NCBI GenBank assembly: GCA_021777835.1
Contig: JAJYDC010000001.1
Location: 62,001 to 126,000 of the forward strand
Length of the DNA: 64,000 nt
Source: Bacteroidota bacterium
GTDB taxonomy: Bacteria; Bacteroidota; Ignavibacteria; Ignavibacteriales; Ignavibacteriaceae
Direction of reading: 5' to 3'
This document shows, one piece after another, positions 9,750 through 32,035 of the stretch (the stretch's first letter is position 1; each line of letters opens with the position of its first letter). The notes under the pieces are model-generated. The model saw nothing but the letters and a program-made list of their open reading frames with translations, searched no databases and was not told where the DNA came from. The translations under genes and the position numbers were made by a program.

Positions 9750-11888
9750 CTATTTGCCTTCAATTAATTTCAGATATTCAGGTTCATTCCTTATTGAATC
9801 CAGGTCAGGATCTCTTTTCATCCACTCATAATTTTCCCAGCCGGTATGTATCGCTTTTTCAAGAAATTCTATAGCCAATTTCTTTTCATCTAACCTAGCA
9901 TAGAAACAAGCGCCATTATATTGCATAAGGGCATCATCCGGACTTAATTCAAGTGCCTTAGCGCCATTTAACTTTCCTTCTTCTATTCTGCCAAGTTGGA
10001 CTAAAACAGTTGCAAAGAATATATATGCTCTCGCATCGTCAGGATGCTGCGACAAATGTCGCGGATATGCTTCTGCTGATTTCATAAGAATATTATTGTA
10101 TTCATCTTTTAACTCTAATTTTTCGTATGATGCACAAAGATCCATATATGCAGAATAAAAATCAGGATTTAAAACAATCACCTTTTTGTAAAGTTCAATA
10201 GCTTCTTTATCTCTATCAGTACTATGATAAATTCTGCCTAATATCCATATCCCGGTGAAATTATTTGGATCAAGTTCTATTGCTTTTTCCCCCGCTGTTG
10301 TTGCTTCGGCAAGAGAATTTCCGTTGTAATGTGCTAGTGCTAATGCTGCGTACGCTTCAGAAAGAGTTGCATCATACATCATAGCTTTCAAACTTGCTTC
10401 AATAGCTTTATCAAGTAAAGTTTTATTCCTTTCAAAATAGAGAAACAAATAAGCATAGGATTCGCTTAAACCTGCATAAGCTGATGCATAACGAGGATCG
10501 ACTGTAATTGCCTTTTGAAAAAGCTGAATTGCAAAATGAATATTAGTCTTCGTCATTCTATACAGAAAATCCCTGGCACGCAAATACAAATCAAATGCTT
10601 CAGAATTAAGAGTAGAACGTTTTTCTAGCACAACCTTTTCAGTTGGCGATAGTTTGATTCTTAGTGCATCAACGATTTCTTTTGATACTTTTTCCTGTAT
10701 ATCAAAAACATCGGATAATTTTCCTTTGAACGTCTCTGCCCAAAGCTGGGAATCTTTATCTACATCAATAAGTTCTACTGTTATACGAAGATTGTCCTGA
10801 AATTTTCTGACACTGCCTGCAAGTATATAACGTGTCCCTAATTCTCTGCCTATAGTTTTAATATCTTTATTTGTACCTTTATATCTCATGGATGTCGTTC
10901 GGGGAACAAGCCTAATGTTTTTAAGCTTTGATAGGCTGGCAATTAATTCCTCAGTTAATCCATCTGTAAAATAATCACTGTCTGCGTCGGGGCTAATATT
11001 ATCAAACGGAAGAACAACTATGGCTTTATCTTTTTCATCACTGCCGGTATTTTGGATGTCAAGTTTAACAGCATCTAAAGATTTTAATAATTCATTAACA
11101 TTTTGAAATCTTTTGTCCGGATCTTTTTCTAACATTTTCATTACAAGACCATCAATTTGATGAGGGACTTTTTTATTCATCAAATTCGGTGCTGTAGGCG
11201 TTTCATTTGCAATAATATAAAATAATCCAGCTTCATGTTCCGATTTAAACGGAAGTTCACCAGTTAATATCTCGTAAAATACTACTCCTAGCGACCAGAT
11301 ATCAGATCTATTATCGGCTGGCAAACCATGTGATTGTTCCGGAGACATATAAGACAATGTCCCTAATGATGTCCCGGTTTTTGTTATTCCTGCATGATCC
11401 ATAAGTTTTGCAAGTCCGAAATCCATTATTTTCATTCTTCCGTCTTTAGTTATCATTATGTTTTCTGTTTTAATATCTCGATGGATGATATTCATATTAT
11501 GAGCTGTTTTTAATCCATTAGCTATTTGTTCAATCCAATCAATTGCCTGTACAACCGGCAAACCGGTTCCTTTGGTCACTTTAGGCAGGTAAGACTTTAA
11601 CGTTTCGCCGTCCACGTATTCCATAACTATAAAAAGATCTGAGTCTTCTTCGTCTATTTCATAAATACCCAGAATATTAGGATGATTAAGTGAAGCAACA
11701 GATTTCGCTTCTCTCATAAATCTTGCTTTGCTTTCTTCTGAGGAAGCAAGATGAGATGGCAGAAATTTTATAGCTACTGCTCGGCCAAGTTTTAGATCTT
11801 CAGCTTTATAAACTATACCCATTCCGCCTTCACCAAGTTTCCCTATAATACTATAATGAGAAATTTTTTGTCCTATTATCTCTTTCAT
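9750..11888 (-). CDS. Ser/Thr protein kinase with COG5616 domain and TPRs (array member 7)
   Basis: 712 residues, same order as the kinase downstream: kinase domain 1-270 (GEGGMGIVYKAED, VAIK, HRDIKTEN, DFG, MSPEQ), a COG5616-like domain beginning IVVLPFDNISPDADSDYF, then a TPR superhelix with NPDFYSAYMDLCASYEKL-type helices. No membrane span, so it is probably cytosolic. The Shine-Dalgarno GAAAGGA lies just upstream of the ATG. The gap to the next gene is 77 nt. TPRs usually bind proteins, so partner recruitment is the likely job of the tail (inference). The C-terminus EWMKRDPDL is nearly the same as in its neighbours. Confidence 0.94.
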   Translation of the reverse strand: MKEIIGQKISHYSIIGKLGEGGMGIVYKAEDLKLGRAVAIKFLPSHLASSEESKARFMREAKSVASLNHPNILGIYEIDEEDSDLFIVMEYVDGETLKSYLPKVTKGTGLPVVQAIDWIEQIANGLKTAHNMNIIHRDIKTENIMITKDGRMKIMDFGLAKLMDHAGITKTGTSLGTLSYMSPEQSHGLPADNRSDIWSLGVVFYEILTGELPFKSEHEAGLFYIIANETPTAPNLMNKKVPHQIDGLVMKMLEKDPDKRFQNVNELLKSLDAVKLDIQNTGSDEKDKAIVVLPFDNISPDADSDYFTDGLTEELIASLSKLKNIRLVPRTTSMRYKGTNKDIKTIGRELGTRYILAGSVRKFQDNLRITVELIDVDKDSQLWAETFKGKLSDVFDIQEKVSKEIVDALRIKLSPTEKVVLEKRSTLNSEAFDLYLRARDFLYRMTKTNIHFAIQLFQKAITVDPRYASAYAGLSESYAYLFLYFERNKTLLDKAIEASLKAMMYDATLSEAYAALALAHYNGNSLAEATTAGEKAIELDPNNFTGIWILGRIYHSTDRDKEAIELYKKVIVLNPDFYSAYMDLCASYEKLELKDEYNNILMKSAEAYPRHLSQHPDDARAYIFFATVLVQLGRIEEGKLNGAKALELSPDDALMQYNGACFYARLDEKKLAIEFLEKAIHTGWENYEWMKRDPDLDSIRNEPEYLKLIEGK

Positions 11889-12051
11889 TTATTTTCCTTT
11901 CATTTACTCGAAAATTCATTTATCTCGCCGATACTTTCCAAATCAATGTCACACCATATTCATTCATGTTCTTTCTAACTCGAAGATATGGTACATTTTA
12001 TTGTGAACGAATCTTTATTTTATATAGCATAACTCCAAGTTGTTTAATAGT

Positions 12052-12144
12052 CTAATTTGTGTCCTGGGCTTTATAGAGAGCGCCCAAGCCACCTTCGCCG
12101 AGCTTCTCAATAATTTTATAATTTAGTATTGTCTCTCCTGTCAT
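12052..12144 (-). pseudogene. Kinase N-terminal remnant micro-ORF (30 codons)
   Basis: Reads [19 protein letters not shown], continues LGALYKAQDTN, then a TAG stop. This is an unmistakable copy of the first 30 residues of the array kinases (glycine loop and KAQDT), ending exactly where LDRFVALK should follow. Its ATG overlaps the stop of the micro-ORF at 12141-12242 as ATGA. No kinase sequence is visible in the roughly 160 nt after it. Confidence 0.85.
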
Positions 12145-12242
12145 ACGACACCTTTTATATTGTGTTGATGGCTTCGGCGGGACGGTTCGCCTTCACAAAG
12201 CTTCTCTACAATTTTATAATGTAATATCGTTTCACTAATCAT
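12141..12242 (-). pseudogene. Kinase N-terminal remnant micro-ORF (33 codons)
   Basis: Reads MISETILHYKIVEKLCEGE and then leaves the kinase homology as PSRRSHQHNIKGVV before TGA. The switch coincides with a GC-rich 23-nt block (12169-12191, plus strand beginning TGGCTTCGGCGGG) that recurs, altered, in the remnant at 25175. The stop overlaps the next remnant's ATG (ATGA at 12141-12144). Confidence 0.8.
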
Positions 12243-12300: not shown

Positions 12301-14589
12301 TCACAACGGCAGATTCATCTTTTTCATAAATGCTGCGTAACGCGAGTCTTTAACTATGTTACGCATTAGCGGATCACCTACCATTTCCGAAAGACCGCTA
12401 TCTCTCAGATTGTAAGACTTTTCCAGCCATTTGAATGCACTGTCCTTCTCTCCACGGTAAGCATATATTTCTGCAATCTCGTATGCACCGCGGTTCACGT
12501 AATTTTTAATTAAATCTGCTAATTCAGCATCTGCTTCTTTTTTTCTGCCCAGCGTGTAATCAACAATTGCAAGTCCTTGAATTTTCCAGAAGGGATCTTG
12601 TTCTTTTTCAATCTCAGTCATTGCCGAGTCTGGCATCCCTTTCTCAAGATAAACAAGACCGATTAGTACATGCGCATCCGGAAATTGCGGGCTCAGCTCC
12701 AGGCATTTTCTAAAGGCACCAATTGCCACATCAGGTAAGCCTTTATACCATGTTGAAAGACCAAGATTAAGGTATCCATCAATATCCACCGGGTCAATCT
12801 CAATTGAACGGCGCTCGAGTTTTATTGCCTTATCAAAGTGTCCTAGTGTGTGCGCCAAGAGAGCGGCACCGTTAATAACATCTGAATTTCCCGGCTCTAG
12901 TTCTAATCCCTTTTTTAATGCTTCATCCGCGGCTTTCCAGTTCCAGTGATAGTTTTTCTCTATCCATGCCATTTGAGAGTAGGCTTCTGCAAGTTTCGGG
13001 TCAAGTTCAATTGCCTTCTCTGATTCCTTGAGCGCTAGGGTGTTAGCTTCATCCACGGGTACGTATCCATTATTAGCCATGTCACTATGAAGTTCTGACA
13101 ACCCAACCCACGCCGGCGCATAGCTGGAATCAATAGAGAGCGCCTTCTGATAATAACTTTCTGCTTTCTCAGAATTTTCTTTACCGTACAAATCAGAAAA
13201 ATGATTCCCAAGCAGATAATTGTTGTAAGCTTCGGGGTTCGTATTCTGTTCCGGCGCTGCACCTTCTTTACCAAACAGTGCTGCATTTAATGCCTCTGCC
13301 ACATTTCCTGATATTGAATCCTGCAGCGCAAATATGTTGTTCAGTGTTCCATCATAAGTTTTTGACCATAGCGTTGCGTCAGTCTTAACATTAACAAGGT
13401 CTGCCGATATGCGGAGATTGTTGCCAGCCTTTTGAACGCTGCCTTCAAGTATATTCTTCACGTTTAGTTTTGCTGCTATGGTTTTAATATCAAGCCCTTT
13501 CCCCCTGAAAGAAAATGACGATGTCTTGGCTGTAACACGAAGATTTGGATTCCTTGAAAGTACGTTTATAAATTCTTCTGTCAATCCGTCGGAAAAATAT
13601 CCCTGGTCTTTCTTCGGACTAAGGTCATCAAATGGAAGCACGGCTATCGTCTTTACTCCTACTGTTGTTTTCCCTCCTCCTTTTGATAAAGGTATAAAAA
13701 GATAGAATGTTATTGCAATTAGTATTACCGCTGCTCCGGCAACAATCAAAGGAAGCTTTGACTGCTTTATCTGAGCTCTCTTTACCTCTCCGCCTTGGCT
13801 TATTGTTATCAGTTCTTCTGCAATTTCTCTTGCCGTCTGGTATCTCTCATCAGGATTCTTTGCCAGAGATTTGCCGATTATATGTGTTAATCCTTCATCA
13901 TATTCAGTAACCGGATCGAGTTCTTCATTGAGAATAGAGTATATTATTGCCTGGTCATAATCTCCCTTAAATGGCATTTTTCCAGTCAGCATCTCATAGA
14001 CTACAACACCCAATGACCATATATCTGTTCTGTGGTCAACCTCATCACCCCTGGTCTGTTCAGGGGACATATAAGCAACCGTTCCTATTGTAGAGCCTAT
14101 CTGTGTTAGCTGTGAACCTCCTTTTACTTTAGCCAACCCAAAATCCATTATCTTTACTTTGCCTTCATTGGTAATCATAATGTTCTGAGATTTTATATCT
14201 CTATGTACAATTCCTTTTTTATGTGCGGCTTCCAATCCTTCCGCTATTTGTATTGCTATATTTAGCAATTCTTTAGTAGAAATCGTACCGGATTTGACTT
14301 TATCTTTTAGTTCTATTCCATCAATAAACTCCATCACTATAAATACATTATCGCCCTCTTTTTCAATAGCATGGATTATAGTAATATTGGAATGATTCAA
14401 AGCTGCTGCCGCCTGTGCTTCAATTTCAAAGCGTTTTCTCTCATCAGAGCCTGCCGATATTTGTTTAGGCAAAAACTTTATAGCGACCTGCCGTTTTAAT
14501 TTTGTATCCTCAGCAAGGTAAACTACTCCCATCCCGCCCCGTCCCAATTCCTTAATGATCTTATAATGTAGAATAGTTTCACCTATCAT
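12301..14589 (-). CDS. Membrane Ser/Thr protein kinase with COG5616 domain and TPRs (array member 6)
   Basis: 762 residues. Kinase domain with a slightly altered glycine loop GRGGMGVVYLAED, plus VAIK, HRDIKSQN, DFG and YMSPEQ. Unlike the other TPR kinases it has a transmembrane helix near residue 290 (LPLIVAGAAVILIAITFYLF). The COG5616 domain (IAVLPFDDLSPKKDQGYF) and TPRs should then lie on the far side of the inner membrane, which would make it a receptor-type kinase. The ATG overlaps the stop of the 85-residue ORF upstream (ATGA, 14586-14589), and there is only a weak ribosome site, so translational coupling is plausible. The C-terminus differs from the EWIKRDPD tail of the other TPR members. 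Confidence 0.93.
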   Translation of the reverse strand: MIGETILHYKIIKELGRGGMGVVYLAEDTKLKRQVAIKFLPKQISAGSDERKRFEIEAQAAAALNHSNITIIHAIEKEGDNVFIVMEFIDGIELKDKVKSGTISTKELLNIAIQIAEGLEAAHKKGIVHRDIKSQNIMITNEGKVKIMDFGLAKVKGGSQLTQIGSTIGTVAYMSPEQTRGDEVDHRTDIWSLGVVVYEMLTGKMPFKGDYDQAIIYSILNEELDPVTEYDEGLTHIIGKSLAKNPDERYQTAREIAEELITISQGGEVKRAQIKQSKLPLIVAGAAVILIAITFYLFIPLSKGGGKTTVGVKTIAVLPFDDLSPKKDQGYFSDGLTEEFINVLSRNPNLRVTAKTSSFSFRGKGLDIKTIAAKLNVKNILEGSVQKAGNNLRISADLVNVKTDATLWSKTYDGTLNNIFALQDSISGNVAEALNAALFGKEGAAPEQNTNPEAYNNYLLGNHFSDLYGKENSEKAESYYQKALSIDSSYAPAWVGLSELHSDMANNGYVPVDEANTLALKESEKAIELDPKLAEAYSQMAWIEKNYHWNWKAADEALKKGLELEPGNSDVINGAALLAHTLGHFDKAIKLERRSIEIDPVDIDGYLNLGLSTWYKGLPDVAIGAFRKCLELSPQFPDAHVLIGLVYLEKGMPDSAMTEIEKEQDPFWKIQGLAIVDYTLGRKKEADAELADLIKNYVNRGAYEIAEIYAYRGEKDSAFKWLEKSYNLRDSGLSEMVGDPLMRNIVKDSRYAAFMKKMNLPL

Positions 14590-14843
14590 TTCAGACCTGC
14601 ATCAAATTTTTCTGTAATAAGTTCCTTAAAGATGCTCATTTGGCTAAACTTGATCTTAAAGTTTAAGTAACCTCTTGTTTGTTTTCTATTTTGGGCTCTT
14701 TCTGGTTTTCTAAACCAATTTGAAGCTTCCAATGTGTGATTTGAAACTTCCCTGGAATTATTGGAAATCTTCCGGAATTCACTGGAAACTTCCCGGTCTC
14801 TCTTCCTGATGCTTCGTAACAAAAAGAGAATTTCACCAATCAT
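14586..14843 (-). CDS. 85-residue ORF between two kinases, possibly a decayed kinase start
   Basis: It begins MIGEILFLL, close to the MIGETILHYK start of neighbouring kinases, then runs into charged sequence without kinase motifs. The DNA at 14715-14794 is four degenerate units of about 20 nt, each carrying GGAAG.TTTC on the minus strand (as in GGAAGTTTCCAGTGAATTCC). It overlaps the upstream kinase stop by ATGA (14840-14843) and the downstream kinase start by ATGA (14586-14589). It could therefore act as a translated spacer. No known family; it may not make a functional protein. Confidence 0.45.
   Translation of the reverse strand: MIGEILFLLRSIRKRDREVSSEFRKISNNSREVSNHTLEASNWFRKPERAQNRKQTRGYLNFKIKFSQMSIFKELITEKFDAGLK
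14715..14794 (-). repeat. Four degenerate ~20-nt tandem units
   Basis: On the minus strand successive units start GGAAGTTTCC, GGAAGATTTCC, GGAAGTTTC and GGAAGCTTC, spaced 20-22 nt and partly separated by AATTCC. They lie inside the 85-codon ORF and explain its unusual SSEFRKISNNSREVS composition. Confidence 0.6.
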
Positions 14844-17593
14844 TTATTAGTCTCCACTTCCTTCTGCCAGTTATCTACTAAGGTAATTGATGGCTGGGCC
14901 ATTTGCCCGTTTGGTATTGATGCAGTTATTTCAGTACCTGTTTTATTTATATCAAAGATATTTATTATATTTGAATTTCCTGGGGTAAAAACTAAGTAAG
15001 GTTTTCCGGGTGAAATTGATGAGCCTGTTTCATTTATATCTACTCCCATTATTTTTTTATCAGGAGTATCAAAATAGATGCTCTTTCCGTTATTCATCCA
15101 TTTGCCGTTCATCCCACCATCAACAGAGATTTGCCATTTACCGCTAGCGTTTACAGTCGGATTATTTGGATTAAATGGAATCACATAAATTTGATATTTT
15201 CCCGATTCATCCGATTGATAAACAATCCACTTCATGTTAGGTGAGAATACTCCATCAAATTCATTAAAATTAGTAGCCGCTATAGAGACAGGTTTTTTAT
15301 CTCCCTGTGTGGGCAGTAGAAATACATCAAAGCCGCTAGTGCTGCTGGCAAAATCTATTCCCGTGTACAAGATATATTTACCATCTGAGGAAATGCTGGT
15401 TGCAACATTAGTATAGTCTGATTTACATAATAGTGCTGCATCGCCTGAACCATCAGCATTTTTAATATATGCATTGAAACCACTACTTTTATTGTTAGAG
15501 CTGTACGTGATCTGCTTTCCATCATTTGTCCAGCGAGGCACTATATCGCCTTGGTCAAATGTAAGTCTTGTCCAAACACTTCTGCTTAAATCATAAACCC
15601 AGATATTATATTTCTTTTCACTCGGGTCGTATAAGTCGCAAACAATTTTATTTCCATCAGGCGAAAACTCTGCACTGTTATACGGAACCATATTCGATAA
15701 TTTCCTTAATTCACTCCCGTCTTTATTTAATATCACTAAGTTGCCATTTTTCTGATTTCCTTCAAGATATACCAGTTTCCCGTTTTGTGAAACGGCAAAA
15801 GTCCCGGAGATTCTTGAATCCCAATACTGGATATTTTCTGCAACAGGCATTGCCTCTCCTTCAAGCTTTAATTTGTCTGAATCAAATTTCTGTGCTAATA
15901 GAATAGACTGTCTCACGAACAATAAATATCCGTTTGCATACTGGCAGTTTGACGACGTAACCATAAGCTTTTCCGGTTTGGGGCTTTCCAAAGAAGCGAG
16001 AAAGACAGCATCTGTCGGAGTAGAACCAGTATAACTATTTTCAGTAGAATAGATAAAATGTTTTCCGTCAGGTAAAAAGTATGCCCACCTCAAGCTTTGA
16101 GACGGTATTGAAGTATCTTTCTTTATAATTACTTCCGGCTTTCCGCCTGAAGAGGGAACCTCATAAAGACTGCCGGATGGAGTTGGAGAAAAAACAATTG
16201 TTCCATTCGTACTCCATGATCCACCTCTGCCTGAAGATGCATCGCATATAGGAAGTGAAGTCCCTGCTTCAAGAGAAATCTTCATCAACTTGCCTCTATT
16301 AAAGTATGCTATGGTTTTACTGTCCGGCGACCAGAATGGATATGCTTCGTTAGTTGCAACTGTTAAGGGTCTTGCAGTTAATGAATTTATCGGTCGAACC
16401 CATAGTTTATCTACGCCTGAAGAATCAGCCCCGACAAACGAGATATATTGACCGTCTGGAGAGATTGTCAAATTGCTTCCGAAACTATTATCGAAATTGA
16501 TACCGTGCGGAGTCAGAATTGTTGCTTTAATTTCCTGTACTTCAACTTTTGTTTTGTTGAATTCTGAAAAAACAAGCAATAAAATAACTGCTATAAAAAG
16601 TACTCCGGCAGCAGACCAAAATAGTTTAGGATTATAAAAAACGTTTTTGAATATATTTTTTACCTGCATATCTCCTATAGAAGATTTAGTAGGTGTATTA
16701 ACGACTTTTGTTTGTCCGCTAGGAGTATTGAATGATTGAGTATTAACGCTGTACATTCTGCTTGTTCGTCCGGAAGTTAATGCACGCTGTATCTTTCTTA
16801 AATTTTTTGCAAGTTCTTTTGCCGACTGAATTCTTTCATCTTTATCTTTTTCCAAACATTCAAGTATGATTCCGTCAATCTGCGGATCAATTCCTTCTTT
16901 AATCAATGAAATAGGGGAGGGGTCTACATTTACAATTTCATACATAATTGCAGTCTCGTGTATTCCCTTAAATGGTGATTCTCCTGTAAACATTTCATAA
17001 AGCACTACGCCTAGTGAAAATATATCCGTTCTATGGTCTACATCTAATCCCTGGACCTGTTCAGGTGACATGTAACCCATCGTACCCATTGTTGTACCCG
17101 CTTTAGTCAATCTTGAAACCTCGGAAGTCTCTCTAAGCTTTGCCAACCCGAAATCCATTATCTGTACTATCCCGTCTTTGCGAATCATTATGTTTTCAGG
17201 TTTTATATCCCTATGTACTATTCCTTTTTCATGTGCCGCGGCTAATCCTTCAGCAACTTGAACTCCGATATCAAGTATCCTTTTTTCAGAAAGGTTCTGC
17301 TTATTATTACGGAGTGTAATACCGTCAATGAATTCCATTGCAATAAACAACTGGTTATTGTATTTCTCAATGGAATATATAGTGCAGACATTAGGATGAT
17401 TCATCGCAGATGCGGCTTTAGCTTCCTGAATAAATCTTGCTTTGCCATCTTCTGAAGCTGTTAATTGAGTGGGGAGAAATTTAAGAGCGACAAAGCGATC
17501 GAGTTTTGTATCTTGCGCTTTGAAAACTTCACCCATGCCACCTTCGCCGAGTTTCTCAATAATTTTATAATGTAGAATTGTTTCGCCAATCAT
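14840..17593 (-). CDS. Membrane Ser/Thr protein kinase with TolB-like beta-propeller (array member 5)
   Basis: 917 residues. Kinase domain 1-270: [13 protein letters not shown] at 16-28, VALK, HRD at 127-129, DFG at 147-149 and MGYMSPEQ. A linker of about 50 residues and a transmembrane helix near 320-345 (LFWSAAGVLFIAVILLLVF) follow. The rest is WD40-like/PD40 (TolB) repeats of the form SPDGQYISFVG, SPDSKTIAYF, SPDGNKIVCDL and SSDGKYILYTG. The propeller should be outside the cytoplasm and act as a ligand- or protein-binding sensor. The start follows GAGGATTTAA. Codons 3-254 are nearly identical at DNA level to those of the next upstream kinase (recent gene conversion). Confidence 0.95.
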   Translation of the reverse strand: MIGETILHYKIIEKLGEGGMGEVFKAQDTKLDRFVALKFLPTQLTASEDGKARFIQEAKAASAMNHPNVCTIYSIEKYNNQLFIAMEFIDGITLRNNKQNLSEKRILDIGVQVAEGLAAAHEKGIVHRDIKPENIMIRKDGIVQIMDFGLAKLRETSEVSRLTKAGTTMGTMGYMSPEQVQGLDVDHRTDIFSLGVVLYEMFTGESPFKGIHETAIMYEIVNVDPSPISLIKEGIDPQIDGIILECLEKDKDERIQSAKELAKNLRKIQRALTSGRTSRMYSVNTQSFNTPSGQTKVVNTPTKSSIGDMQVKNIFKNVFYNPKLFWSAAGVLFIAVILLLVFSEFNKTKVEVQEIKATILTPHGINFDNSFGSNLTISPDGQYISFVGADSSGVDKLWVRPINSLTARPLTVATNEAYPFWSPDSKTIAYFNRGKLMKISLEAGTSLPICDASSGRGGSWSTNGTIVFSPTPSGSLYEVPSSGGKPEVIIKKDTSIPSQSLRWAYFLPDGKHFIYSTENSYTGSTPTDAVFLASLESPKPEKLMVTSSNCQYANGYLLFVRQSILLAQKFDSDKLKLEGEAMPVAENIQYWDSRISGTFAVSQNGKLVYLEGNQKNGNLVILNKDGSELRKLSNMVPYNSAEFSPDGNKIVCDLYDPSEKKYNIWVYDLSRSVWTRLTFDQGDIVPRWTNDGKQITYSSNNKSSGFNAYIKNADGSGDAALLCKSDYTNVATSISSDGKYILYTGIDFASSTSGFDVFLLPTQGDKKPVSIAATNFNEFDGVFSPNMKWIVYQSDESGKYQIYVIPFNPNNPTVNASGKWQISVDGGMNGKWMNNGKSIYFDTPDKKIMGVDINETGSSISPGKPYLVFTPGNSNIINIFDINKTGTEITASIPNGQMAQPSITLVDNWQKEVETNK

Positions 17594-23073: not shown

Positions 23074-25185
23074 TTACTTACCTTTCATTAACTCTATATA
23101 GCCCTGTTCATTTCGTATATTATCAAAGTCAGGGTCACGCTTAATCCATTCAAAATTTTCATAACCTTTATCTATTGCTTCTTTTAATAATTCCACTGCT
23201 TTGGTTCTCTGATTTAGGTATGAATACAAGTTTGCCCCGTAGTACATCATTATCGGATCGTTTGGACTTAAATCTAATGCTTTTTCACCTTCAAATTTTG
23301 CCTCTTCATATCTTTTTAGCTTTGCTAAAGTAACTGCGTAAGACATACGCCTGTATGTATCCTCTGGATGCTGTGCCAGGTATTTGGGTACTACCATTAT
23401 AATAGTATCAAGCGTGCTATAATACTTTTCTTTGTCACCAAGTCGAAGGCTGCACATTTCCAGGTCATCATATGCCTGAAAGAAGTTTGGGTTCAATAAT
23501 ATTGTCTTCTCCAAAACTTCAGTTGCCTCTGCATCCTTTCCGGTTGATTGATATATCCGCGAAAGTATCCAATAAGCGTTAATATTATTTGGATCAAGAT
23601 CAATGGCCTTTTTGCTTGCAGTTAATGCTTCGTCTAAAGAATTTTTCCCGAAATAAGCTAAGCCTAATGATGTGTAAGCTTCTGATAATGTGGGGTCATA
23701 CATCAAAGCTTTTAAGCTTACTTCTAAAGCATTATCAAGCCACTTCTCTTGTCTATCAAAATCTCTATAGATTATTGCGAATGCTTCGCCGAGTCCGGCA
23801 AATGCAGATGCAAATCGAGAGTCAAGTTCTACTGCTTTTTGGAAAAGTAAAATCGCAAAGTCTATATTATTTCTAGTCCTGTTCGATAAGAAGTTCCTTC
23901 CTCGTAAATAATAATCATATGCCTCTGCATTTAAAGTAGGTCGCTTTGTTAATTCCACTTTTTCTACCGGCGAAAGCTTAACCATTAATGCATCTACAAT
24001 TTCCTTAGATACTTTTTCTTGAATATCGAATATATCGGCTAACTTTCCTTTGTAAGTCTCTCCCCAAATCTGAAGGCTCTTTATTGCCTCGATTAGCTGA
24101 ACCGAGATTCTTAAATCGTCTCTGAATTTTCTAACGCTGCCGACCATTAAATATTGCACACCCAGTTCTGTTCCTATAGTCTTTAAATCTTTTTTCGTTT
24201 CCTTATACTGAAATGTATTAGCTCGTGCTATTACCTTAACTTCTTTTATCTTTGATAAGTTTATTATTAATTCTTCTGCTAATCCGTCGGCAAAGTAGTC
24301 TGTTTCCTTATCAGGACTAATATTCTCAAACGGCAGAACAGCAACTGTCTTCTCAATATCATTCTTTGATTCTTTTTTATTCTTGATCTCTTTCAAATCT
24401 TCTATTAATTCATCAGCATTCTGATACCTATGCCCGGGATCTTTAATTAAAGCTTTTCGCACCAATTGTTCTAGTTTGATTGGAATCCCGCTTTTAATGG
24501 AAGTTATTGATTCAGGATCTTCATTCAATATCGAATATATTACTGCTTGCTCAAATTCTCCTTTGAATGGAAGTCTTCTAGTCAGCATTTCATAAATTAT
24601 TACGCCTAAAGACCATATATCTGTTCTTTTGTCGACATGCTCTCCCTTAGCTTGTTCAGGCGACATATAGGCTGTAGTCCCTAATGTTGTACCTACTTTA
24701 GTGATATGGCTTGTGCCTCCAATTTTAGCTAAGCCAAAGTCCATTATCTTAATTTGAAAGGCTGAGTTGAGCATAATGTTGCTGCTTTTAATATCCCGGT
24801 GCACAATACCTTTTTGATGAGCAGCTTTTAATCCTTCTGCAGCCTGCAAGATTAATTCGATGCAGTCATCCAGATCAGGAATCCCTTTATTTATTTTTTC
24901 TTTCAATTCAATGCCGTCTATATATTCCATCACTATAAAGATTTCTTTATCCGTTTCTTCAATAGCATAAATTGTGGCAATATTAGGATGATTTAAAGCA
25001 GCAGCAGCCTGTGCTTCTATTTCAAACCTGCGGCGCTCCTCTGTGTTGGATAGTATCTGATGAGGCAAAAACTTAATGGCTACTTCGCGATTTAATTTTG
25101 TGTCTTCAGCCTTATATACTACTCCCATTCCTCCTTCGCCGAGTTTCTCTATAATTTTATAGTGAAGTATTGTTTCACCGATCAT
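23074..25185 (-). CDS. Ser/Thr protein kinase with COG5616 domain and TPRs (array member 2)
   Basis: 703 residues: kinase (GEGGMGVVYKAED, VAIK, HRDIKSSN, DFG, YMSPEQ), no membrane span, a COG5616 domain starting VAVLPFENISPDKETDYF, and TPRs with the EWIKRDPDFDNIRNE tail also seen in members 7 and 8. Its kinase part is closest to the membrane TPR kinase (RRRFEIEAQAAAALNHPNI), while its rear resembles members 7 and 8, which suggests module shuffling within the array. A GAGGTG site precedes the ATG. The start codon lies inside the end of a remnant micro-ORF (25175-25279). Confidence 0.94.
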   Translation of the reverse strand: MIGETILHYKIIEKLGEGGMGVVYKAEDTKLNREVAIKFLPHQILSNTEERRRFEIEAQAAAALNHPNIATIYAIEETDKEIFIVMEYIDGIELKEKINKGIPDLDDCIELILQAAEGLKAAHQKGIVHRDIKSSNIMLNSAFQIKIMDFGLAKIGGTSHITKVGTTLGTTAYMSPEQAKGEHVDKRTDIWSLGVIIYEMLTRRLPFKGEFEQAVIYSILNEDPESITSIKSGIPIKLEQLVRKALIKDPGHRYQNADELIEDLKEIKNKKESKNDIEKTVAVLPFENISPDKETDYFADGLAEELIINLSKIKEVKVIARANTFQYKETKKDLKTIGTELGVQYLMVGSVRKFRDDLRISVQLIEAIKSLQIWGETYKGKLADIFDIQEKVSKEIVDALMVKLSPVEKVELTKRPTLNAEAYDYYLRGRNFLSNRTRNNIDFAILLFQKAVELDSRFASAFAGLGEAFAIIYRDFDRQEKWLDNALEVSLKALMYDPTLSEAYTSLGLAYFGKNSLDEALTASKKAIDLDPNNINAYWILSRIYQSTGKDAEATEVLEKTILLNPNFFQAYDDLEMCSLRLGDKEKYYSTLDTIIMVVPKYLAQHPEDTYRRMSYAVTLAKLKRYEEAKFEGEKALDLSPNDPIMMYYGANLYSYLNQRTKAVELLKEAIDKGYENFEWIKRDPDFDNIRNEQGYIELMKGK

Positions 25186-25279
25186 TTGGCACCTCTAATA
25201 TTATCCCGATATGACTACGGCGGGCAGGTCCACCGAGCTTTTCTAAAAATTTATAATGATGTATATCTTCGTTAACCAT
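25175..25279 (-). pseudogene. Kinase N-terminal remnant micro-ORF (34 codons)
   Basis: Reads MVNEDIHHYKFLEKLGG, then PARRSHIGIILEVPNDR and TGA. HHYKFLEKLG matches the kinase N-terminus. The tail PARRSH matches PSRRSH of the remnant at 12141-12242, encoded by a related GC-rich 23-nt block at 25212-25234 (plus strand TGACTACGGCGGGCAGG). It overlaps the start of the next kinase by 11 nt. Confidence 0.75.
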
Positions 25280-31564: not shown

Positions 31565-32035
31565 CTACTTTTCGAAATACAAAATAGTTTTTTCAGTATA
31601 ATTATTAATCAAACCATCTGGTGCCCAGGTAGATCTTGTCCCGCCATTAATTGAAACTTGTATTTTACTACGCGCATTGTTAAACGGAATTACATAAACT
31701 TCATTTCTTCCTGATTCATCTGAAACGTATGCAATGTATTTATCATTTGGTGAAAATGCAGAGAACCATTCATCATATTGGGTTCTTACAATAGATTCCG
31801 GTTTAGCTCCTTCTTTTAATTCCATAACTGCTAAATCTGCAATAGATCGGGAAATGGAATCTGTTTCACTATAAGCTAAATACTTATTATCTTCAGTAGT
31901 TGTCAATTGAATAGGAAGGAATTTAAGAGCGACAAATCGATCGAGTATTATATCTTGTGCTTTGAATACTTCACCCATTCCGCCTTCGCCTAGCTTTTCG
32001 ATAATGCGGTAATGTAAGATTGTTTTATCGATCAT
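31565..32035 (-). pseudogene. Collapsed kinase: glycine-loop fragment fused to propeller fragment
   Basis: 156 residues. Residues 1-49 match the array kinases ([32 protein letters not shown]). The sequence then jumps, after LTTTED, into a C-terminal propeller blade ([37 protein letters not shown]) and stops inside the next blade (TILYFEK). HRD, DFG, activation segment and membrane helix are all missing, so it cannot be a kinase. The join falls where ED-G-K of the kinase and SDGKY of a blade resemble each other, fitting a short-homology deletion of roughly 600 codons. The start and its GGGAG ribosome site are intact, so a small protein may still be made. Confidence 0.85.

Follow-up and report, generated by a model that had tools for sequence, protein, structure and literature searches.

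A synthetic version of the short upstream ORF that delivers a ribosome to the gene behind it is reportedly known, and palindromic elements are found within coding genes in Rickettsia. Delivery of the ribosome to a downstream gene by short upstream ORFs is described in PMC12548453, and the same source describes the mycobacterial interspersed repetitive unit (MIRU), in which a short ORF lies beside a gene and is coupled to it with -4 spacing (the stop overlapping the start), and whose insertion disturbs expression little. Gene pairs overlapping in ATGA are presented as coupled by termination-reinitiation in PMC6728339. The short ORFs treated here begin like a kinase and lie before kinases in tandem arrays, and literature searches of open-licence papers found no precedent for such a kinase-start leader. 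These leaders would be a variant of the already known translation-coupling short ORFs, the new part being their apparent origin from the kinase start. On the best reading, the closest known kind is the MIRU, and the leaders would work like MIRUs without being members.

The window, which is the whole stretch of DNA that was analysed (64,000 nucleotides of contig JAJYDC010000001.1 from a member of the Ignavibacteriaceae), contains an array of kinases on the minus strand, from about 32035 to 7537, each with TPR or beta-propeller (PD40-like) parts. Pfam was applied to three of the array kinases and to a 156-aa remnant. The original prediction placed two micro-ORFs between two intact kinases, and this arrangement was confirmed, both flanking kinases being full-length by Pfam Pkinase. 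The features of this place are as follows.

14589..12301, minus strand: intact kinase with a TPR part, 762 aa, upstream of ORF1; Pfam Pkinase E 3.5e-57; 94% DNA identity to its orthologue in G001
12242..12141, minus strand: ORF1, putative kinase-start leader, 33 aa, MISETILHYKIVEKLCEGEPSRRSHQHNIKGVV; 19 kinase-start codons, linker and short spacer, with the stop within the ATGA of ORF2
12216..12217, minus strand: site of 60 bp (in frame, with palindromic parts) carried by G001 and G009 and not by the window
12171..12185, minus strand: ORF1 linker ccgtcccgccgaagc, a divergent version of the CCTGTCCGCCGWAGC linker
12144..12052, minus strand: ORF2, probable kinase stub of 30 codons, 30 aa, with an intact kinase at the equivalent place in G001
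11889..12051, minus strand: 163-nt gap from the ORF2 stub to the next kinase
11888..9750, minus strand: intact kinase with a TPR part, 712 aa, next after ORF2; Pfam Pkinase E 6.1e-59

As had been claimed, both micro-ORFs restart like a kinase and the first stops on the start of the second, the TGA of ORF1 lying inside the ATGA that opens ORF2. A 41-aa kinase-start query matched ORF2 with E 1.6e-11 and ORF1 with E 0.0018, and the kinase-start likeness of both is, judged from these matches, not chance. A query with the catalytic loop served as a control for N-terminal bias: in 25 genomes, contig ends included, it gave zero matches with an open frame below 160 aa (the lowest was 167), and the kinase-start query gave six such short frames in the same genomes, contig ends again included. 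The six are ORF1, ORF2, a leader in G004, a 104-aa internal-deletion ORF in G001, one in G012 and one in G014.

The two micro-ORFs do not have the same history. In G001, a sister species of the same genus, the start of ORF2 at the equivalent place opens an intact kinase of 898 aa (L028 15494..18190), and the homology of the window to this kinase stops after about 30 codons. In G009, a long kinase from a different subfamily starts at the equivalent place. Between the stop of ORF2 and the next kinase lie 163 nt, with no coupling of the two, and for the gap itself no match is listed in the compared pieces of G001 and G004. Because the intact counterpart exists in G001, ORF2 is read as a deletion stub, or gene-loss scar, and it would be the remnant of a kinase lost in the lineage of the window after its split from G001. 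With the kinase behind ORF1 lost, the ORF1 leader would now feed a stub.

An intact counterpart in a relative, as found for ORF2, was not found for ORF1. ORF1 is present and open in G000 (the genome of the window), G001 and G009, it is short in all three, and none of them has an intact kinase in its place. In the alignment, ORF1 and ORF2 together are 88% identical to the orthologous place in G001 over 162 bp. The ORF1 frame closes inside the ATGA of the following start in each of the three genomes, and what stands behind it is different in each: this leader (leader c) precedes a stub in G000, and in G001 and G009 it precedes kinases of different subfamilies. Similarly, leader a, found in G001 and G004, has different kinases behind it in the two genomes. 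Since leader c is common to three genomes and leader a to two, both would predate the species splits. The core of the 60-bp extra piece in the ORF1 of G001 and G009, with at most 3 mismatches allowed, matches 16 sites, which belong to 6 of the 13 genus genomes, these two included. By these comparisons, ORF1 is the older and shared one, and of the retained-leader kind. It is read as a retained leader because other kinases of the family and the class are preceded by this architecture too and because its frame is kept above shuffles.

The recurrent architecture, seen directly in the sequences, consists of the first ~19 kinase codons, cut at the glycine loop, a palindromic linker, about 8 further codons and the kinase ATG. 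The linker is often CCTGTCCGCCGWAGC ("PVRRS"), and the distance from leader ATG to kinase ATG is often 95-98 nt. The kinase set comprised 127 kinase starts from 41 genomes, 126 of which had enough upstream sequence, and the 300 nt upstream of each were surveyed with an HMM of kinase starts. Leaders were found before 31 of these 126 family kinases, in 17 genomes, with the ORF2 stub before a 32nd, and this is no prevalence, since the loci were partly picked by the linker (L129-L137) or by similarity to the window's own region (L028-L031), and the additional kinase regions are part of the places among the matches listed. The reversed-sequence control of this HMM gave 0 matches, and 95 kinases of the set have no leader. 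The subset made of the window, L028-L032 and L153-L212 holds 18 leaders, of which 16 are open to the kinase start, with distances distributed 13:4:1 modulo 3.

Pattern searches gave the same picture. The linker pattern occurs at 13 places in 10 of 80 family genomes, all 13 being kinase-start micro-ORFs before kinases (reversed control, 0 matches). When the linker was combined with ATGAT and the kinase start was left out of the pattern, 14 places in 10 of the 80 genomes appeared, 13 directly before a kinase and the remaining one, in G056, before the second leader of a chain; chains of leaders exist in G056 and G094. At the class level, the linker matched in 14 of 391 genomes, of which 7 are outside the family and belong to four other families (f5, f7, f14 and f19), again with 0 matches in the reversed control. 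Of 11 listed class-level places 10 were read; each has a leader-like ORF followed by a kinase start, and 9 of the 10 stop in its ATGA. Damage to the kinase behind is seen in L216 and L225, and a frame shift of it in L217. Absence of the remnants from all other arrays was to speak against the original prediction, and such remnants are present in other arrays.

Some observations stand beside this survey. L216 and L225 both belong to G323, and L216 has a further kinase start behind its damaged kinase; judged from these sequences, the G323 leaders before damaged kinases are a case of heavy turnover in another family. A short palindrome-like in-frame insert occurs inside the kinase start both in leaders (MIGKTIRRGGLHYK) and in intact kinases (MIGKTIRHGGSHYK); such inserts were seen in L032, L133 (G024), L169 (G056), L171 (G055) and L162 (G045).

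The frame was analysed in 32 proximal leaders, that is, the 31 leaders and ORF1, with mononucleotide shuffles. The leader frame runs open through linker and spacer as far as the kinase ATG in 26 of 32 cases, against 13 and 8 for the other two frames, and in 2000 shuffles of linker and spacer the mean number open was 13.7 and the maximum 23. Grouped into 23 spacer clusters, the leader frame scores 19.35 against 9.4 and 6.2, with a null of 9.9 (sd 2.1) and 0 of 3000 shuffles reaching the observed value. Under a looser rule, by which a stop in the last 17 nt before the ATG is tolerated, the leader frame is open in 31 of 32 and the others in 27 and 16, the shuffles having a mean of 18.5 and a maximum of 27; since the second frame reaches 27 of 32, mononucleotide shuffles are an incomplete description of these sequences. 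In addition, the leaders are related, so that the shuffle tests overstate the significance. An exact ATGA stop-start overlap is seen in 18 of 32 leaders. The overlap alone is weak evidence, because the kinase start itself supplies the ATGA and stops the other frames: starts of the form ATGATnGGTGA or ATGATnGGTAA, read from the sequences, close both within 11 nt.

The distance from leader to kinase is informative as well. It is 93-98 nt in 21 of 32 and ranges from 85 to 164 nt (for u6 and u8 it was counted from the aligned part, giving 98 nt; from the ATG it is 158 nt). Modulo 3, 22 distances equal 2, and the other classes hold 8 and 2; by spacer cluster the split is 16:6:1, and with one leader per genome the skew is weaker, 11:4:2 of 17. 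Ten distances, from insert-bearing leaders, fall at 116-164 nt, and 8 of these are 2 modulo 3, the other two being 124 nt and both from G087.

It can be argued that the leaders are non-functional scars, young debris of kinase turnover whose frame is open only through recency and coding origin. ORF2 is such a scar, remnants of internal deletion lie in the arrays (window 31565-32035 and the 104-aa ORF of G001), and some leader copies are broken, the frame being interrupted near the start in 2 of 32 (u4 and u13) and the stop lying 10-17 nt early in 4 of 32. The leader starts are also as kinase-like in their N/S ratio as kinases are. For the first 13 codons, pN/pS is 0.12 between leaders and their nearest kinase (23 leaders, 9 of 32 family leaders being left out for indels or inserts), 0.16 for class-level leaders (n=10) and 0.14 among kinases themselves (n=124), and these low values fit young copies as well as constraint. 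However, the linker and spacer are not recognisably kinase and yet lack stops more frequently in the leader frame than in the other two, the distances are skewed 22:8:2, and leaders c and a appear to predate species splits. We therefore consider debris an unlikely explanation of the set, though one that keeps appreciable weight. The kinase-start short ORFs look like retained translation-coupling leaders, not like random debris, and for ORF1 in particular we estimate the probability that it is a translationally coupled leader ORF born in the array at roughly 0.6. A kept frame is supported by the sequence comparisons; a conserved peptide sequence is not claimed.

Start signals are commoner than in shuffles. 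An SD-like motif precedes 18 of 26 leader ATGs (shuffled mean 4.6, maximum 11) and 21 of 31 kinase ATGs behind leaders (shuffled mean 7.8, maximum 16), and it also precedes 53 of 95 leaderless kinases. The upstream ORF ends at the leader ATG or within 25 nt of it in 15 of 30 cases, a share not above that of leaderless kinases, 37 of 86. These counts fit, without proving it, the leaders being additional small cistrons within chains in which coupling is common.

A leader peptide or RNA could instead have a specific regulatory job, as a decoy of the kinase start, an attenuator or a hairpin. Indeed, GGCGGA-CCTG-TCCGCC of the linker can pair as a hairpin, its six pairs being formed in 32, 32, 28, 30, 33 and 24 of 34 linkers. 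A two-sided change that still pairs was found among these 34 linkers in one sequence at one pair (pair 6) only, and therefore there is no real covariation; moreover, insert-bearing leaders have other linkers, and linker conservation is overstated because the linker was the search key in the pattern surveys. As for the peptide, the 162-bp piece (the second part of ORF1 with ORF2) differs from G001 by 12%, close to the pS of 0.148 of the upstream kinase against the same genome (pN 0.032), and of two pairs of orthologous leaders one has 6 N and 1 S differences and the other 4 N and 4 S, two comparisons that are too few to decide. A specific job of the peptide or RNA is thus judged improbable. Of the two origins first offered for the micro-ORFs, a scar of exchange at the 5' end suits ORF2, whose counterpart is intact in G001, and a retained leader suits ORF1 by recurrence and kept frame; the support is for the frame and not for a conserved leader peptide. 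At the position of the first loop glycine, 124 of 124 kinases have G, and ORF1 and u32 have another residue, a contrast given little weight because the kinase set was picked by an expression containing these glycines. An Rfam search of window positions 7000-33000 returned two matches, both far below the gathering score and to eukaryotic or viral families, neither at ORF1.

In phage T4 gene 60, ribosomes carry out programmed bypassing, and a hop from the leader Gly codon to the same kinase codon, yielding one joint protein, could be imagined here as well, given the possible hairpin after the leader Gly codons and the recurrence of the same codons downstream, often 95-98 nt on. Against this, the distance varies from 85 to 164 nt, and a hop is not needed because the kinase has its own ATG, often with an SD-like motif. 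Bypassing is accordingly regarded as highly implausible, and coupling through a retained leader is still the preferred reading.

The rest of the array contributes three further features.

25279..25175, minus strand: further kinase-start leader MVNEDIHHYKFLEKLGGPARRSHIGIILEVPNDR, 94 nt ahead of the ATG of kinase 25185..23074
14843..14590, minus strand: 254-bp insert where two kinases meet in ATGA, opening with a near copy of the kinase start; 85-aa ORF 14843..14586; absent in G001
31565..32035, minus strand: 156-aa ORF, a kinase start joined to a PD40 part, probably an internal-deletion kinase derivative

The junction of kinases 17593..14840 and 14589..12301 is a plain ATGA overlap in G001 and carries the additional 254 bp in the window. 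The length of this insert is 2 modulo 3, with ATGA at each end, and its 84 codons contain 0 in-frame stops against 4 and 9 in the other frames (a proportion of 0.0004 of 5000 shuffles is open). As far as the sequence can tell, it is a direct case of a frame-keeping insertion. No further copy was found in the fetched loci, to which the comparison was limited. Its payload carries repeated ggaa/ttcc motifs.

Other rearrangements were noticed in the arrays. The 104-aa ORF of G001 (L028 5218-5532, plus strand) joins the start and the C-terminus of a kinase that is intact in G004 (865 aa), and the join lies at a KQF stretch found at both places. In the window, two neighbouring kinases (20295-19489 and 17593-16787, minus strand) share 98% DNA identity over their first 807 bp only, a pattern that points to the kinase domain having been exchanged or converted recently.

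Two sources were considered and rejected. The leaders do not as a rule stem from a local copy of the start of the kinase behind them, as similarity averages 0.73 to the own downstream kinase and 0.71 to other kinases of the genome (means, 21 leaders), though individual cases such as G046 (0.90) fit. A palindromic repeat spread through the genome was considered as the source of the linker; CTGTCCGCCGAAGC, with at most 1 mismatch, occurs 0-5 times per genome in the 13 genus genomes and is therefore not abundant in the genus. One copy of a palindromic repeat having the CTGTCCGCCGAAGC half was found in G009 (C59).

Taken with the retained-leader reading of ORF1, the following course is proposed. 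A tandem array of Hanks-type kinases would turn over by recombination and deletion, and some events would leave, before the next kinase, only the first ~19 kinase codons, fused to a palindromic linker at the codons of the glycine loop (GGCGAAGGCGGA). These codons resemble an arm of the palindromic linker, and recombination or deletion may have taken place at this short match. The stub would be kept if its frame runs to the next ATG, selection for coupling being the putative cause. A ribosome starting on the leader would terminate at or beside the kinase ATG and reinitiate there, so that the chain of coupled cistrons would stay unbroken. A bolder version holds that the arrays make their own coupling cassettes: the kinase 5' end, cut at the glycine loop by palindromic repeats resembling its codons, would turn into a leader running from ATGA to ATGA. 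Such a leader would be retained, would be common to related species, would grow by in-frame repeats and would serve again when another kinase takes the place behind it. This version is offered tentatively, at somewhat less than even odds.

The likeness to MIRUs, judged from their description, lies in the putative mode of working, a short ORF at the start codon with -4 coupling. The stop overlaps the next start in exact ATGA form in 18 of 32 leaders, and 26 of 32 reach the kinase start. For mobility with insertion at a start codon, a trait of MIRUs, there is a single candidate, the 254-bp insert at the ATGA junction that G001 lacks. Unlike MIRUs, the leaders combine a start taken from the very gene family that they precede with a palindromic linker, and dispersal at unrelated genes was not seen, since all 14 linker-ATGAT places in the 80 genomes are at kinases (13 directly, 1 by way of a second leader) and not at varied genes, for the one linker type searched. 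Because they are built from a kinase start and found at kinases, the leaders are not filed as MIRUs. With ATGA-overlapping gene pairs they share an equal stop-start overlap and an SD-like motif inside the upstream ORF (21 of 31), but a leader is a truncated copy of a kinase start and not a normal gene. As in short upstream ORFs, frame and stop position would matter in the leaders, not the peptide, and an open frame extends to the downstream start or its immediate neighbourhood in 26 of 32 and, at the class level, in 9 of 10; the difference is that leaders recur at one gene family and apparently derive from it. The palindrome-like inserts of leaders, mostly of frame-keeping length, recall the Rickettsia elements by description, but their place is in leader ORFs, in most cases at the codons of the glycine loop.

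These findings suggest that a gene start may be reused as a translation-coupling leader, and that with leaders of this kind tandem arrays may lose or swap members while the chain of coupled cistrons remains intact. The leaders form a recurrent and testable set of short ORFs, smaller than gene finders usually keep, and they suggest a case in which the frame, perhaps not the peptide sequence, is selected. If the cassette version is true, a gene family would be building a MIRU-like control element from itself.
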